Shown here piece after piece: positions 18,153 through 62,705 of a DNA stretch of 64,000 nucleotides (its first letter is position 1; every line of letters begins with the position of its first letter). Position numbers and translations under genes: made by a program. This DNA comes from Rahnella aquatilis CIP 78.65 = ATCC 33071 (lineage in GTDB: Bacteria > Pseudomonadota > Gammaproteobacteria > Enterobacterales > Enterobacteriaceae), in NCBI RefSeq assembly GCF_000241955.1, contig NC_016818.1, positions 2,542,001-2,606,000 of the forward strand, read 5' to 3'. Under the pieces are notes generated by a model. It ran no database searches. It was not told the origin of the DNA and saw only the letters and a list, made by a program, of their open reading frames with translations.

Positions 18153-18847
18153 GGCTGTCTGAACCGGTAACCGACGCCGCGCACGTTAACTAACACGTTA
18201 ACGATGCCTGCGGATTCGAGTTTTTTGCGCAAGTTATAGACATGCGTATCGACCACCCTTTCCAGCGCCTCGCTTTCCGGCAGGCAATGTTCCAGCAAAT
18301 ACTGGCGCGAAAACGGGCGTGTCGGCGCCCGCATCAATGTGCTCAGCACGCCAAACTCTGTCGGTGTTAAATCCAGATAATGCGGTTCACCCGAGGCCGA
18401 ACTCACCGCCGCCGTCAGCGCCTCGACATCCACATCGAGCCCCTGCCAGCGCAACACCGCAGGCGTGCTGTTTTCGTCTGCCGCAATACGGCGCAGCACC
18501 GCCTGCACCCGCGCCACCACCTCGCCGGGGTTGTAAGGTTTGACCACATAATCATCCGCGCCGAAGCGCAGCGCGCCAATTTTATCGGGCACATCGCCCA
18601 TCGCCGTCACCATAATCACCGGCGTGCTGCTTTCACGCCGCAGCGCCGCCAGCACATCGGTGCCACGCATCCCCGGCAGCATTACATCCAGCAGAATGAG
18701 ATCCGGCTTCCAGCGCAGCGCGTGCTCCAGCCCGGAAACACCGTCACCGGCAATCTGTACGTCATACCCTTCACGTTTTAAATAAGCATCGAGAACGTCT
18801 GCCGCATCGGCATCATCTTCAATAATCAGGATCCGCTTTGTCTGCAT
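18149..18847 (-). CDS. two-component response regulator (OmpR family, AdeR/BaeR-like)
   Basis: 232 residues. The receiver domain has the acidic pair ED near residue 10, the phospho-acceptor Asp in LILLDVMLPG (about 53) and the conserved Lys in VVKPY (about 103). The C-terminal winged helix (about 140-230) contains DLTPTEFGVLSTLM and RVVDTHVYNLRKKLE, typical of OmpR-class DNA binding. AAGG lies before the ATG. It is cotranscribed with the kinase gene that follows. It begins 140 bp after the end of the glucan synthase gene on the same strand, so read-through from that gene is possible; no clear terminator separates them. Confidence 0.88.
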   Translation of the reverse strand: MQTKRILIIEDDADAADVLDAYLKREGYDVQIAGDGVSGLEHALRWKPDLILLDVMLPGMRGTDVLAALRRESSTPVIMVTAMGDVPDKIGALRFGADDYVVKPYNPGEVVARVQAVLRRIAADENSTPAVLRWQGLDVDVEALTAAVSSASGEPHYLDLTPTEFGVLSTLMRAPTRPFSRQYLLEHCLPESEALERVVDTHVYNLRKKLESAGIVNVLVNVRGVGYRFRQP

Positions 18848-18987
18848 AGGGTCGCCTTGACTGTTTCATCATAAATTCCCGGCAGTTTACTGACACTGCC
18901 TGTTCATACTTCCGGTTTCCGACGCGGCTGCAATCCGCTACGAAACATACGTTTGGGTGATGAGGGATTATAATGATATCCAGAAAA

Positions 18988-21900
18988 CTAATGCTGCACA
19001 TTATCTGTTTCAGCGTTTTCTGCCCGGCTGCCCAGTTCAACCTCCACCTGATGCGCATTGCCGTCATCCGTCAGCGGGATCAGATCACCGTCCAGCGCAT
19101 TGCCGTCCAGCGTGACACGATAATCCCCTGTGCTGCGCCGCACCGTGATCAGGTAACGGCTGCTGCCTTGTTGATATGTCACCGCGATTTCCGGCCACAG
19201 CGCAGGCAGTTTGCTGTGAATGGCGATAGCATCGCCGTGGCGTGTAATGCCCAGCAGTGATTCGGTGATTAACCGGTATGTCCAGCCCGCAGAACCGGTA
19301 TACCAGCTCCAGCCCGCGCGGCCACTGTGCGGGTCTACCGAATAGATATCGGCGGAAATCACATACGGCTCACCTTTATAGCGGCTGACCGCTTCAGGTG
19401 TGAGGCTGTGATTGATCGGGTTGATCATCGACATCAGTTCCCAGGCGCGTTCGGTGTTGCCCTGTCTGGCAAACGCCATCACCGCCCAGATGGCCCCGTG
19501 GGTGTACTGTCCGCCGTTTTCACGTACGCCAGGCAAATACCCGCGGATATATCCCGGATTCGGCCCGTTGCCGTCAAATGGCGGTGTCAGTAATCGGATC
19601 AGCCCCGCATCGTTATCGACCAGACGCTTGTCGACCGATCGCATGGCGCTGGCAGTGCGTTCAGGCGTACCGGCTCCGGAAAGCACCGACCAGCTTTGCG
19701 CGATCGCATCTATCTGACACTCATCGTTCGCATGCGAACCCAGCGTTTCACCGCTGTCGAAGTAACCGCGCAGATACCACTCACCATCCCATGCATGGTC
19801 GTTGAGATTTTGTTTCAGCAACGCCGACTGCTCGCGGCAGAGGGTAGCGACAGCGATGTCCTGGCGGCTTTCTGCCAGCGCACCATAGCGTTGCAGCACG
19901 TCGTAGAGGAAAAAGCCCAGCCAGACACTTTCCCCACGCCCGCCCAGTCCCACCAGATTCATGCCGTCATTCCAGTCTCCCGCGCCCATCAGCGGCAGCC
20001 CGTGGTCGCCTATTTTCAGGCCATGCCTGAGCGCACGCACGCCGTGCTGCCAGAGGCTTTCCTGCGTTGCGCTGACCTGCGGTTGCTCGTAGAACGACTC
20101 TTCGCCTGCGTCCAGCAGACGTGCCTCAAGATAAGGCACGGACTCTTCCGCAATACCGTCATCGCCGGTAACGGAGATGTAATGGCTGATGGCCAGCGGC
20201 AGCCAGAGATAATCGTCAGAGCAGCGGGTACGCACGCCATTGCCGGTTGGCGGATGCCACCAGTGCTGGACGTCGCCTTCAATGAACTGCCGCGACGCAC
20301 ATAACAGGATCTGTTCACGCATCCGTTCCGGCGCCGCGTGGCTCAGCGCCAGCGTGTCCTGCAACTGGTCGCGGAAACCGAACGCCCCGCCGGACTGATA
20401 ATAACCGCTGCGTGCAAGGATGCGGCTGGCTAAGGTCTGGTAAATCAGCCAGCCATTGGTTAGCAAATCGACCGATTTATCCGGCGTAGTGATCTGAATT
20501 TTGTCCAGCACCTGATGCCAGTGATGATGAATGCGATCCAGCTCAGCCTGCGCCTCTCCCTCCTGAAAATACTGATGAATGAGCGCTTCGGCATCTGCGG
20601 CATTCTGCCCCAGGCCCAGCGCGAAAACAAAGATGCGCTGGTCGCCGTCGATAAGCGTTGTCGCCGACTGCACTGCACCGCAAGGATCCAGCGCCGCGCC
20701 GGTTTTATCGGAAAGACGCTGATTTTTCATGGCAGCAGGCATGGCTGCGGAACCGGTGCGCCCGAAGAACTCGCGACGGTCACCGCTGACCGAGCAATGC
20801 GCGCCGGTCACCGCGAAGAAGGCCGTGCGTTCAGAGCCGTTGCCGGTGTAATGATTGGTCGCCAGTACGCCGCAACCCTTTACCACGTGGGCTGCCGAGG
20901 TGACGATATGCATGGCTGATTTGGCACGTAAATCCGCCATCACCCATTCGGCATAACCGGTCACCGACAATCTGCGCGGCCTGCCGGAGAGGTTAGTCAG
21001 GGTCAGAATAATCAGTTTGACCGGCGCGTGTTCAGCGACTAATACCGTCATTTCGCTGGAAATACCCCGTTCGGTATGTTCGAAGCAACTGTAACCAAAA
21101 CCGTGGCGGGTGACGTAACCGCCGACGCCGCGCACCGGTAGCGGTGCCGGTGACCAGACGCTGCCGCTTTCCTCATCGCGCAGATAAAAGGCTTCGCCGG
21201 AACTGTCGCTGACCGGGTCATTTTCCCACGGCGTTAAGCGGTATTCGTGGGCATTTTCATACCAGGTATACGCCTGCGCGCTTTCTGAAATCACCGTACC
21301 GAAGCGGGCATTTGCCAGTACGTTCGACCACGGGGCTGGCGTGGTTTGCCCTTCGTTGAGCACAATCTGATATTCCCGGCCATCCGGCGAGAAGCCGCCC
21401 AGTCCGTTGAAACAGGCCAGTTCACGTGGTGGCGCAATCACCGGCTGGCTGTCGTTGACCGTACGCACCGGCAGCAACGCAGGCAGGGAAACGAGCGGCG
21501 TTTGCGTCCGCTGATTCAGCTGATCGGCCAGACTGCCACGGCGGTCGTCGATCATCACATGCGCCACGCTCATCAGCAGCGTGCGATCCTCCGGGGTCAT
21601 CTGCTCGCCGTTACGCACGAAAATGCCACCCGGAATATCGGTCTGGCTGGATCCCGCACCGGAGGCCACCAGGCTGAGGATCTGGTTTTGCAGCGCCTGC
21701 TGATAACCGCCGGAATCATTACACAACAGCACCAGATCGACTTTCAGTCCTTTCAGACGCCAGTAGTGATGCGCACGGATCAGCAACGTCACCAGCCCGA
21801 TATTTTCGTTGCTGGTCATGGTCAGCAGTACAATGGGCAGATCGCCGGAAAGCGACTGTCCCCACAGGCCGGATTGCCCGCGGCGGTTGGCGGCGACGGA

Positions 21901-61291: not shown

Positions 61292-61335
61292 TTTGTTTGC
61301 TCCTCCCACTTCAAAGAGCAGTTTTTTCTTTGCTC

Positions 61336-61355
61336 CTCCCCCTGCGAAGGGGGAG
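61336..61355 (+). repeat. REP-like element copy B, left half (split by IS110)
   Basis: CTCCCCC (61336-61342) / GGGGGAG (61349-61355) with loop TGCGAA is the hairpin of the REP-like family. Its G-rich tail is missing here and continues as GGCCGGGAGGGGGTTTT at 62545-62561, beyond the IS110 element. Joining the halves at one AG gives a normal member of the family. Confidence 0.75.
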
Positions 61356-61385
61356 CAGCTGTGTCGAATGTCAATCCGGCAGCGA

Positions 61386-62324
61386 TTAATTTGCTGCCCA
61401 TTCACGGCCATCTCGCACCATCGCATTCAGGATTGTCACCAGTTTCCGGATGCATGCTGTTAGCGCAACTTTCTTTAACTTTCCCCGAGCGATGAGACCG
61501 TCGTAAAACCTCTTGATTTCCTTATTATTCTTTTTTGCCACCAGCGCAGCCATATACAATGCAGCCCGCACCGCTGAACGCCCTCCCCAGATAGCTCGCT
61601 TCCCTTTGAGCTTTCCGCTGTCATGTGAATAAGGGCACACTCCCACCAGAGCACTAATTTTCCTCCGACTCAGTGTTCCTAATTCAGGCAAAAGTGCTAA
61701 TAACGTCGCCGTCGTTGTTGGGCCTACGCCTTTGACACTGCTCAGGATTTTTGCTTTCTCCTGCCACAGTGGCATCACACGCAACTGTCGTCCAATGTCA
61801 TCATCGAGATCTTTTATCTGGCTGTTCAGCCACTCGATGTGATGGTGAATGAGTTCCGCAACATCAAGATGGACACCATCAAGGCGGTTTTTTTCCATCG
61901 TCCGCATATCGATCAACTGACGCCGTCTTGTCACCATTTGCGCAAGCCGCTGGGTCTGCTCATCACTTGCTACTGTCAGCGGCGGCAACACGACTTGTGC
62001 AAAGCGACTCAGCACCATGGCATCAAGTTTGTCCGTTTTCGCGAGATTCCCGAGCGATAAGGAAAAATGCTTAACCTGCCGTGGGTTTACGACCGATACG
62101 GGATAGTTTTCCACAGATAAATTTGCGGCTAACACACAGTGATAACGACCCGTAGCCTCCATGACTATCTGTGCAACCTCATAATTTTTAAGCAAATTAA
62201 TGAAGTCGACATGGCCAGTTTGGTTGTTAGTAAACTTCTGATAGAAATTGCCAACGTTAATAAAAACATCGAAGGTTTCTTTAGAAATATCGACGCCGAC
62301 AAATGCTTTTGGGGACTGATTCAT
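61386..62324 (-). CDS. IS110 family transposase (DEDD/serine recombinase)
   Basis: 312 residues. The N-terminal RuvC-like DEDD domain shows D12 (VGVDISK), E56 (IVMEATGRY), and D98 and D101 (LAKTDKLDA). A central coiled-coil stretch (about 130-175) joins it to the C-terminal Transposase_20 domain with VKGVGPTTTATLLA and the conserved serine region GVCPYSHDSGKLKGKRAIWGGRSAVRAALYMAA. The frame is intact, so the element may be active. It recombines a circular donor with a target chosen by its bridge RNA. Confidence 0.93.
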   Translation of the reverse strand: MNQSPKAFVGVDISKETFDVFINVGNFYQKFTNNQTGHVDFINLLKNYEVAQIVMEATGRYHCVLAANLSVENYPVSVVNPRQVKHFSLSLGNLAKTDKLDAMVLSRFAQVVLPPLTVASDEQTQRLAQMVTRRRQLIDMRTMEKNRLDGVHLDVAELIHHHIEWLNSQIKDLDDDIGRQLRVMPLWQEKAKILSSVKGVGPTTTATLLALLPELGTLSRRKISALVGVCPYSHDSGKLKGKRAIWGGRSAVRAALYMAALVAKKNNKEIKRFYDGLIARGKLKKVALTACIRKLVTILNAMVRDGREWAAN

Positions 62325-62327
62325 TAT

Positions 62328-62475
62328 TTCCCGTCCTTGTAGATACGGGCTGGTGCAGGCACCGCCCAGGCAGCTGTTCGGGTTAAAAATGAGCTGACGT
62401 AACGCAGGAATGCTCCCCCACGGGCTTGATGTCCCAGAGGCCGGACTTGCTGCTACATCAGTTTAGAACTCGTTA
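62328..62475 (-). ncRNA. IS110 bridge RNA (target- and donor-binding loops)
   Basis: Read on the minus strand. The target loop is closed by GTAGCAG (62456-62450) and CTGC-GT-TAC (62407-62399). It carries CCGGCCTC (62444-62437), identical to the left target plus core on the strand read, and GGGGGAG (62419-62413), complementary to core plus right target CTCCCCC. The donor loop is closed by CCCG (62382-62379) / CGGG (62333-62330) around an inner hairpin GGGC-GGTGC-CT-GCACC-A-GCCC (62367-62347). It carries ACAGCTGC (62377-62370), matching the RE end, and TACAAG (62341-62336), complementary to CTTGTA at the LE. This is the layout described for IS621 bridge RNA. The ends of the RNA are estimated. 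Confidence 0.78.
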
Positions 62476-62497
62476 AAATAATAGATGCTTGAAAGAG

Positions 62498-62534
62498 ATT
62501 TCAATGATCAACGACGTAAATCAATCATTGAAAT
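62498..62534. other. 11-bp inverted repeat inside the IS110 left end
   Basis: ATTTCAATGAT (62498-62508) / ATCATTGAAAT (62524-62534), perfect, 15-bp spacer. It lies between the element's tip and the bridge RNA; it may be part of the promoter or a structural element of the end. Confidence 0.65.
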
Positions 62535-62543
62535 GAACATACA

Positions 62544-62565
62544 AGGCCGGGAGGGGGTTTTAAAG
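62544..62565 (+). repeat. REP-like element copy B, right half
   Basis: AG core, then GCCGGGAGGGGGTTTTAAAG (62546-62565), corresponding to the tail TTGGGTGGGGGTTTCAAAAG of copy A. With 61336-61355 it makes one uninterrupted REP-like element. Confidence 0.7.
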
Positions 62566-62610: not shown

Positions 62611-62647
62611 AATACCCCACCCCAACCCTCCCCTTCGCAGGGGAGGG
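62611..62647 (-). repeat. REP-like palindromic element, copy C
   Basis: In inverted orientation: stem CCCTCCCC (62626-62633) / GGGGAGGG (62640-62647), loop TTCGCA, tail AATACCCCACCCCAA (62611-62625). Same design as copies A and B. Confidence 0.72.
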
Positions 62648-62705
62648 AGTCGCCCCCAGCCAGTCTTCACATTTCTTAAGCATCCTCGACAAGAACGAAC
62701 AGAAA

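Follow-up and report, generated by a model that had tools for sequence, protein, structure and literature searches.

A compact IS110-group element in Rahnella aquatilis with a predicted REP-targeting bridge RNA, and its apparently cargo-bearing relatives on plasmids

We analysed a 64,000-nucleotide stretch of the Rahnella aquatilis CIP 78.65 genome (hereafter the window) and find in it a complete element of the IS110 group, 1,190 bp from core to core. It is almost certainly a compact insertion sequence (IS) that carries a bridge RNA in its left end, with a donor loop and a loop addressing REP repeats, and that recombines at a CT core. Comparison with related sequences further suggests that it very probably stands, as the compact sister, next to a clade of natural cargo transposons guided by bridge RNAs. 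Members of the clade would use one RNA and one transposase to mobilise units of 2.8-17.2 kb bearing defence (Gabija, CBASS, type II restriction-modification), export or metabolic genes, their main target being a repeat of the leading region of conjugative plasmids.

The ends of the element were confirmed by two further copies in the same genome, both identical to that in the window. Identity to the window copy spans 236 bases 5' of the start codon and 55 past the stop codon in copy 2, and 223 and 53 bases in copy 3, stretches that are longer than the element because the target repeat is common to the insertion sites. The left junction reads ...TCCCGGC-CT-TGTATG, with TCCCAGC instead in copy 3, and the right junction reads ...ACAGCTG-CT-CCCCC, so that the direct repeat between the junctions is CT only. 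The original prediction, made from the letters of the window, had reconstructed the target as TCCCGGC-CT-CCCCC around a CT core. Both the target and the core proved correct (Table 1).

Table 1. Features of the element and its insertion site, in window coordinates
Feature	Position	Strand	Basis
IS110-group element with both CT cores	61354..62545	-	one of three identical genome copies
Left target TCCCGGC in REP-like repeat, outside element	62546..62552	-	copy comparison
Left CT core	62544..62545	-	sequence
Right donor TGTAT, first bases of left end	62539..62543	-	sequence
TATGTT, -10-like box of junction promoter	62536..62541	-	sequence
Bridge RNA	62328..62531	-	loops and guides by comparison; start near 62531 predicted from IS621
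5' stem-loop of bridge RNA	62498..62534	-	folding, z -3.87
Target-loop outer stem, 5' side	62448..62461	-	covariation
Left target guide GTCCGGCCT	62438..62446	-	guide-flank fit
Target-loop inner hairpin	62421..62436	-	covariation
Right target guide GGGGGAG, pairs with CT-CCCCC	62413..62419	-	guide-flank fit
Target-loop outer stem, 3' side	62394..62406	-	covariation
Donor-loop outer stem, 5' side	62379..62383	-	covariation
Left donor guide ACAGCTGC	62370..62377	-	match to right end
Donor-loop inner stem-loop	62347..62367	-	covariation
Right donor guide TACAAG, pairs with CT-TGTA	62336..62341	-	sequence
Donor-loop outer stem, 3' side	62330..62334	-	covariation
DEDD transposase/recombinase, 312 aa	61386..62324	-	Pfam PF01548 and PF02371, NCBIfam NF033542
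TTGACA, -35-like box, right end	61369..61374	-	sequence
Left donor ACAGCTG, right end	61356..61362	-	donor-guide match and sequence
Right CT core	61354..61355	-	sequence
Right target CCCCC in REP-like repeat, outside element	61349..61353	-	copy comparison

Membership of the IS110 group, likewise part of the original prediction, is upheld by the transposase. Both IS110 domains were found (Pfam PF01548, DEDD_Tnp_IS110, and PF02371, Transposase_20), the NCBIfam profile NF033542, 'IS110 family RNA-guided transposase', scores 228 bits against a cut-off of 140, and phmmer aligns the protein with the solved chains of ISCro4 (E 1e-40) and IS621 (E 2e-37). A serine of the C-terminal motif is aligned between the window transposase (GGRSAVRAALYM) and IS621 (GHVSLRRALYM) and is presumably the catalytic one. 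A weak match to the TIGR_Tas profile raises the alternative of a TIGR-Tas-like RNA-guided nuclease, or of an IS1111-type rather than an IS110-group element, which we consider extremely improbable: the TIGR_Tas match reaches 28.8 bits where the cut-off is 100. Tandem guide arrays are a mark of TIGR-Tas systems, and subterminal inverted repeats of 7-17 bp one of IS1111 elements. IS1111 elements, according to excerpts of PMC11208160, keep their RNA in the right end, whereas here the RNA lies 5' of the gene, in the left end, and only 30 bp run from the stop codon to the right core. In a tree of 27 transposases the protein of this IS110-group element is grouped with a clade found on plasmids (support 100/97), itself one group (96/89); the tree has long branches, and the tool warned of long-branch joins.

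A bridge RNA had been predicted in the left end, with a target loop followed by a donor loop and two guides in each. This layout held: all four guides are present on the minus strand in that order (CCGGCCT at 62438-62444, then the remaining three as in Table 1), and the stems covary. The two loops stand as proposed, and the start of the RNA very likely lies 5' of the limit first set for it, a 5' stem-loop having been overlooked. The 15-bp hairpin at 62498-62534, which none of 200 shuffles equalled in folding, fits an IS621-type 5' stem-loop; by analogy with IS621, the RNA would start near 62531. Folded as a single sequence, the whole bridge-RNA region does no better than its shuffles (z -0.02), and the loops folded alone give z -1.75 (target) and z -0.80 (donor); the evidence for the RNA is comparative, not thermodynamic. 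An Rfam search with the region returned no match at E<=1.

Similarity at the DNA level to plasmids spans the region directly 5' of the transposase gene of relatives whose proteins are about 49% identical. A ten-sequence structure with both loops had double changes in 8 of 26 pairs (2.6 in shuffles, of which one in 500 was as high). We used a covariance model, R1, trained on ten sequences; the E. coli row L079 was excluded from training because the first MAFFT alignment had mispaired it, and its RNA was later recovered by the model. Given 27 loci on which it had not been trained, R1 detected the bridge RNA in 25; three of these, L048, L071 and L075, are closely related to sequences used for training. 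It missed L028 and L042, the latter on a contig that starts at the gene, and the weak partial relatives L045 and L046 were left out of the 27. R1 gave 39 matches in all, 34 of them distinct and the training rows among them; in these, 92.9% of stem cells are paired and 177 are double-changed, against 56.5 in shuffles, and 18 of 24 pairs carry a double change, against 14.9 in shuffles (3 of 500 as high). The R1 alignment is fitted to the structure, and therefore controls with slid stems matter: these gave at most 46.8% paired and at most 26 double-changed cells. Covariation among relatives had been suggested as a check with the original prediction, and by this measure the stems covary. Two scans of viral contigs for relatives of the element found none, in 26 and 5 pattern stretches.

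Two neighbouring cases may be recorded here. In Pantoea dispersa a second bridge RNA of another subtype adjoins the first (L078, 824-951, minus strand). The Rahnella sikkimica locus L048 (genome G204, NZ_CP019064.1) is a decayed relative, a remnant at 90% DNA identity, whose left target guide is CCGACATC where that of the window is CCGGCCTC.

The guides can be read against both the element and its site. As predicted, the donor guides fit the joined ends of the element itself, ACAGCTG-CT at the right end and CT-TGTA at the left, and the target guides match TCCCGGC-CT-CCCCC, the left one with seven Watson-Crick bases (core included) and one U.G wobble, the following base being a mismatch. In copy 3 the single changed target base forms a wobble with the guide. 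In 19 of the 39 model matches the right end is exactly what the donor guide calls for (7 of 7 bases, then T), and five distinct donor guide sequences are represented, including ACGGTTG, ACAGTCA and ATAGTCA; by our own estimate the chance of this is about 0.6% per row, and several rows are near copies. The 20 rows without an exact right end are 11 of the plasmid clade, the remnants L048 and L073, the second L078 RNA, and L012, L018, L038, L041, L043 and L044; the right ends of L038 and L041 were found in a later search.

We scored target guides against the elements' own flanks and against permuted flanks in 34 elements with both ends, a permutation that ignores shared descent. The summed score was 218 for left guides (permuted 174.7, sd 4.7) and 157 for right guides (permuted 71.8, sd 12.3), and no permutation among 20,000 reached either sum. 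Reducing the set to a single element for each distinct left arm (n = 22) gave sums of 140 against 112.0 on the left and 105 against 46.9 on the right, again with 0 of 20,000; among six elements of distinct right guide, sums at least as large came up in 60 (left) and 25 (right) of 20,000 permutations. The right target fits at 5 of 5 bases in 29 of the 34, falling short in L013 (3), L031 (2), L132 (3), L139 (0) and L140 (4), and the left fit is poor, at 3-4 Watson-Crick bases of 8, in L092, L031, L035, L041, L039 and W08. L071 and L069 were left out of the test, their sole donor-like match misfitting the guide or core, and would have lowered the sums; for L071 (the same as W05) an end with one mismatch was found later, and its right flank misfits. 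Also left out were W02 (a near copy of W01), W10 (right end on the other strand) and elements in which either end was missing, and L030 contributed a right flank of only 5 bases before its contig end. In the type comprising L029-L041, L091 and L092, TGTTA lies right of the core in 14 of 15 scored relatives and the left side varies, targets that presumably resemble integron attC sites.

These scores bear on whether an IS110 element might recognise REP repeats by protein or by hairpin shape, the guide fit being a GC-rich coincidence. The target is indeed a GC-rich palindrome, and pairings of low complexity, GGGGGAG with CCCCC for one, arise easily. Coincidence would nevertheless have to explain how guides track right sites as different as TACAT, ATGCT, TCTCT, TGTTA, CACCC and CCCCC, why no permutation did as well for the 34 elements, and how donor guides predict the end in nearly half of the model matches, and we regard it as very improbable. 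Recognition through the guides of the bridge RNA is the reading we retain.

The REP-like nature of the target, also proposed at the outset, was confirmed by the sites of the other two copies, a check suggested at the same time: all three occupy REP-like repeats of a single class, CCGGC-CT-CCCCC for two of them and, by a single base change, CCAGC-CT-CCCCC for the third. The pattern CCSRGCCTCCCC, picked after the occupied sites were known, occurs uninterrupted 15 times in the genome, and its reversed control does not occur. The wider repeat is found in many places in most of 14 genomes of the genus, with at least 43 matches in one and a single match in G173. In all three copies GGGGTGGGGTATTAA lies left of the target, and across the element the target repeat is faced by an inverted REP-like repeat (window 61333-61352 and 62630-62649).

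At the locus itself, two of 13 congeners are uninterrupted and read TCCCGGCCTCCCCC at the core; with the element removed, the joined flanks align to them as one piece (G207, 93%, positions 3-402 of 402; G206, 92%, 3-402). In the remaining 11 the best match covers the joined flanks only partly. The element had been called probably active. Recent movement is indeed suggested by the identity of the three copies and by the empty site in each of two congeners, and actual mobility is a prediction. One may instead suppose a dead or decaying copy with its anatomy intact and its mobility lost, an account compatible with the anatomy we favour: mobility is here predicted from sequence only, and in R. sikkimica the relative at 90% has been reduced to a remnant. 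Set against this are the full-length transposase and intact ends as well as the identical copies and empty sites, and we think decay unlikely.

When the right and left ends are joined, they rebuild TTGACA-N17-TATGTT, a promoter-like arrangement read from the bases alone; according to parts of PMC11208158 and PMC11208160, a promoter is likewise rebuilt at the junction in IS621. By analogy, we propose that the element would be excised as a circle in which the right and left ends meet, and that the promoter rebuilt there would drive the bridge RNA from the left end. The donor loop would then pair with the joined ends, ACAGCTG-CT-TGTA, and the target loop with the REP-like repeat, CCGGC-CT-CCCCC, allowing the transposase to recombine the two at CT.

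In the plasmid relatives, no right end was found beside the transposase gene. We considered whether they lack one and rejected this: the end is ACAACTG, which fits the guide ACAATTG by way of a U.G wobble, and it stands at a distance of kilobases. The predicted donor-core-target junction, ACARYTGCTCMCCC, has exact matches in 8 of 11 plasmid records, one per record except for two in W06 and W11. When up to two mismatches were allowed, the reversed control, tallied with its exact and inexact matches together, also matched 11 of 11 records, and only exact matches carry weight. Seven of the eight exact records have the match on the transposase strand, 2.3-16 kb beyond the gene, and W10 has it on the other strand. 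All eight right ends hold TTGACA at the same position, though it was not part of the query. In Kosakonia (W09), where the right guide is GGGGGAG, the junction reads ...CT-CCCCC in place of ...CT-CACCC. Four further plasmid records, of at least 31 listed, each have the right end downstream, in a search that required TTGACA.

A right-end pattern, TTGACATNNRACACARYTGCT, matched six of 392 genomes, the element's own included, and its control none. Of the five regions inspected, L132 and L136 are elements with both ends; L134 holds a 635-bp derivative (18841-19477) that keeps both ends, a truncated bridge RNA and a small ORF, lacks the transposase, and may be a non-autonomous element mobilised in trans. 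At L135 no left end was found by the pattern used, and at L133 an RNA of another type lies about 16 kb away. Overall, 13 of 18 loci with the clade's RNA (W01-W11, L137-L140, L132, L136 and G460) have both ends in order, the predicted right end standing 2.8-17.2 kb from the left; several of the 13 are near copies. The others are W05, with a one-mismatch right end and a misfitting right flank, W10, with its right end inverted, and W03, W07 and G460, where no right end was found. The predicted units measure 8,269 bp (L086), 8,268 (L109), 7,142 (L087), 4,503 (L105), 9,047 (L088), 3,477 (L106), 17,171 (L108), 8,187 (L132), 8,277 (L136), 2,805 (L137), 7,320 (L138), 7,145 (L139) and 7,321 (L140). The transposase gene is broken or short in three of them: split in L108, with a frame break in L109, and with a reading frame of 254 aa in L132.

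Several of these predicted units carry defence genes. L109 encodes GajA (E 3e-234) and GajB (E 1e-231) with a type II restriction enzyme and methyltransferase, L105 the restriction enzyme and methyltransferase alone, and L087 a CBASS cyclase, a SAVED effector and an E1-E2 protein. GajA of a different family is found in L088, and GajA with a restriction enzyme in L136, the helicase partner in both being assigned by annotation or position only, as are the genes of L086 and L139. Other cargo is not defence by these tests: LysR, enolase-like and oxidoreductase genes in L132 (no PADLOC match in the three scanned), and a C39-peptidase ABC exporter, HlyD, a Clp protease and a methyltransferase in L138 and L140. 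The cargo of L106 and L108 is not defence by annotation, and that of L137 is one protein with no Pfam or PADLOC match. L105 and L109 have ends, transposase and restriction genes in common and differ by a Gabija pair, which in L109 lies between these shared parts: inside a single framework, cargo genes have been acquired or lost.

L138 and L140 are 98.2% identical over 7.4 kb in two plasmid contexts, the alignment extending past the predicted element by about 66 bases on the left and about 10 on the right. The 17-kb unit of L108 interrupts a LysR gene; once its flanks are joined they match, unbroken and at 95.3%, an annotated LysR gene of three other P. vagans records. In the stretch with L105 the target repeat recurs twice more, at 84% and 78%, each time with an unbroken core. 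The joined site of W01 matched 4,063 plasmid records, 131 of them over at least 80% of its length, and the target is therefore a widespread plasmid repeat; among the best 25 of these matches (87% covered, 81-84% identity) there was no near-identical empty site. In L105 and L086 the target repeat lies near leading-region genes, namely antirestriction, DUF1380 and psiB genes. We only raise the question of whether it is the known single-stranded promoter Frpo (compare excerpts of PMC11541004).

Because the bridge RNA names both the target and the ends, target prediction becomes testable without prior data. In the sister clade, reading the guides located right ends kilobases off, and the cargo transposons could therefore be outlined where gene-by-gene annotation shows just an IS110 gene beside a defence island. 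If the units move, defence systems would be passed between plasmids by RNA-guided transposition among other means, and the existence of natural units as large as 7 kb or more would show what such recombinases can handle. The abstract of PMC11208160 (2024) calls IS110 elements minimal, and parts of PMC11187229 describe earlier, engineered cargo carriage by such elements. Titles and abstract openings in the IS110 and cargo or defence literature, with subscription papers and bioRxiv outside the scope, contained no report of natural cargo-bearing bridge-RNA elements. The window element is itself of a known, IS621-type kind; the cargo of its closest relatives appears to be undescribed in the literature searched.

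Among known systems, the nearest in design is IS621 of E. coli, an IS110-group element. As described in parts of PMC11208160 and PMC11208158, it shares with the window element the DEDD and Tnp domains, the CT core, a REP target, the junction promoter, and a left-end bridge RNA in which a 5' stem-loop precedes the target loop and then the donor loop; its left donor guide is also 8 nt long, nucleotides 123-130 by the named linkers (PMC11208158). IS621 differs in its distant protein (phmmer E 2e-37), in its guides and in the REP family targeted. ISCro4 (structure 9t56), compared by protein alone, is the top match among solved structures. The IS1111 group with its seekRNA, from excerpts of PMC11187229, likewise has an RNA matching the top and bottom target strands, but the RNA lies in the other end and its guide order is reversed. 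The cargo-bearing sister clade has the same RNA architecture (R1, 108-150 bits), similar ends and the same junction promoter as the window element, whereas its predicted right end lies kilobases from the left, with cargo between, and its targets are others.
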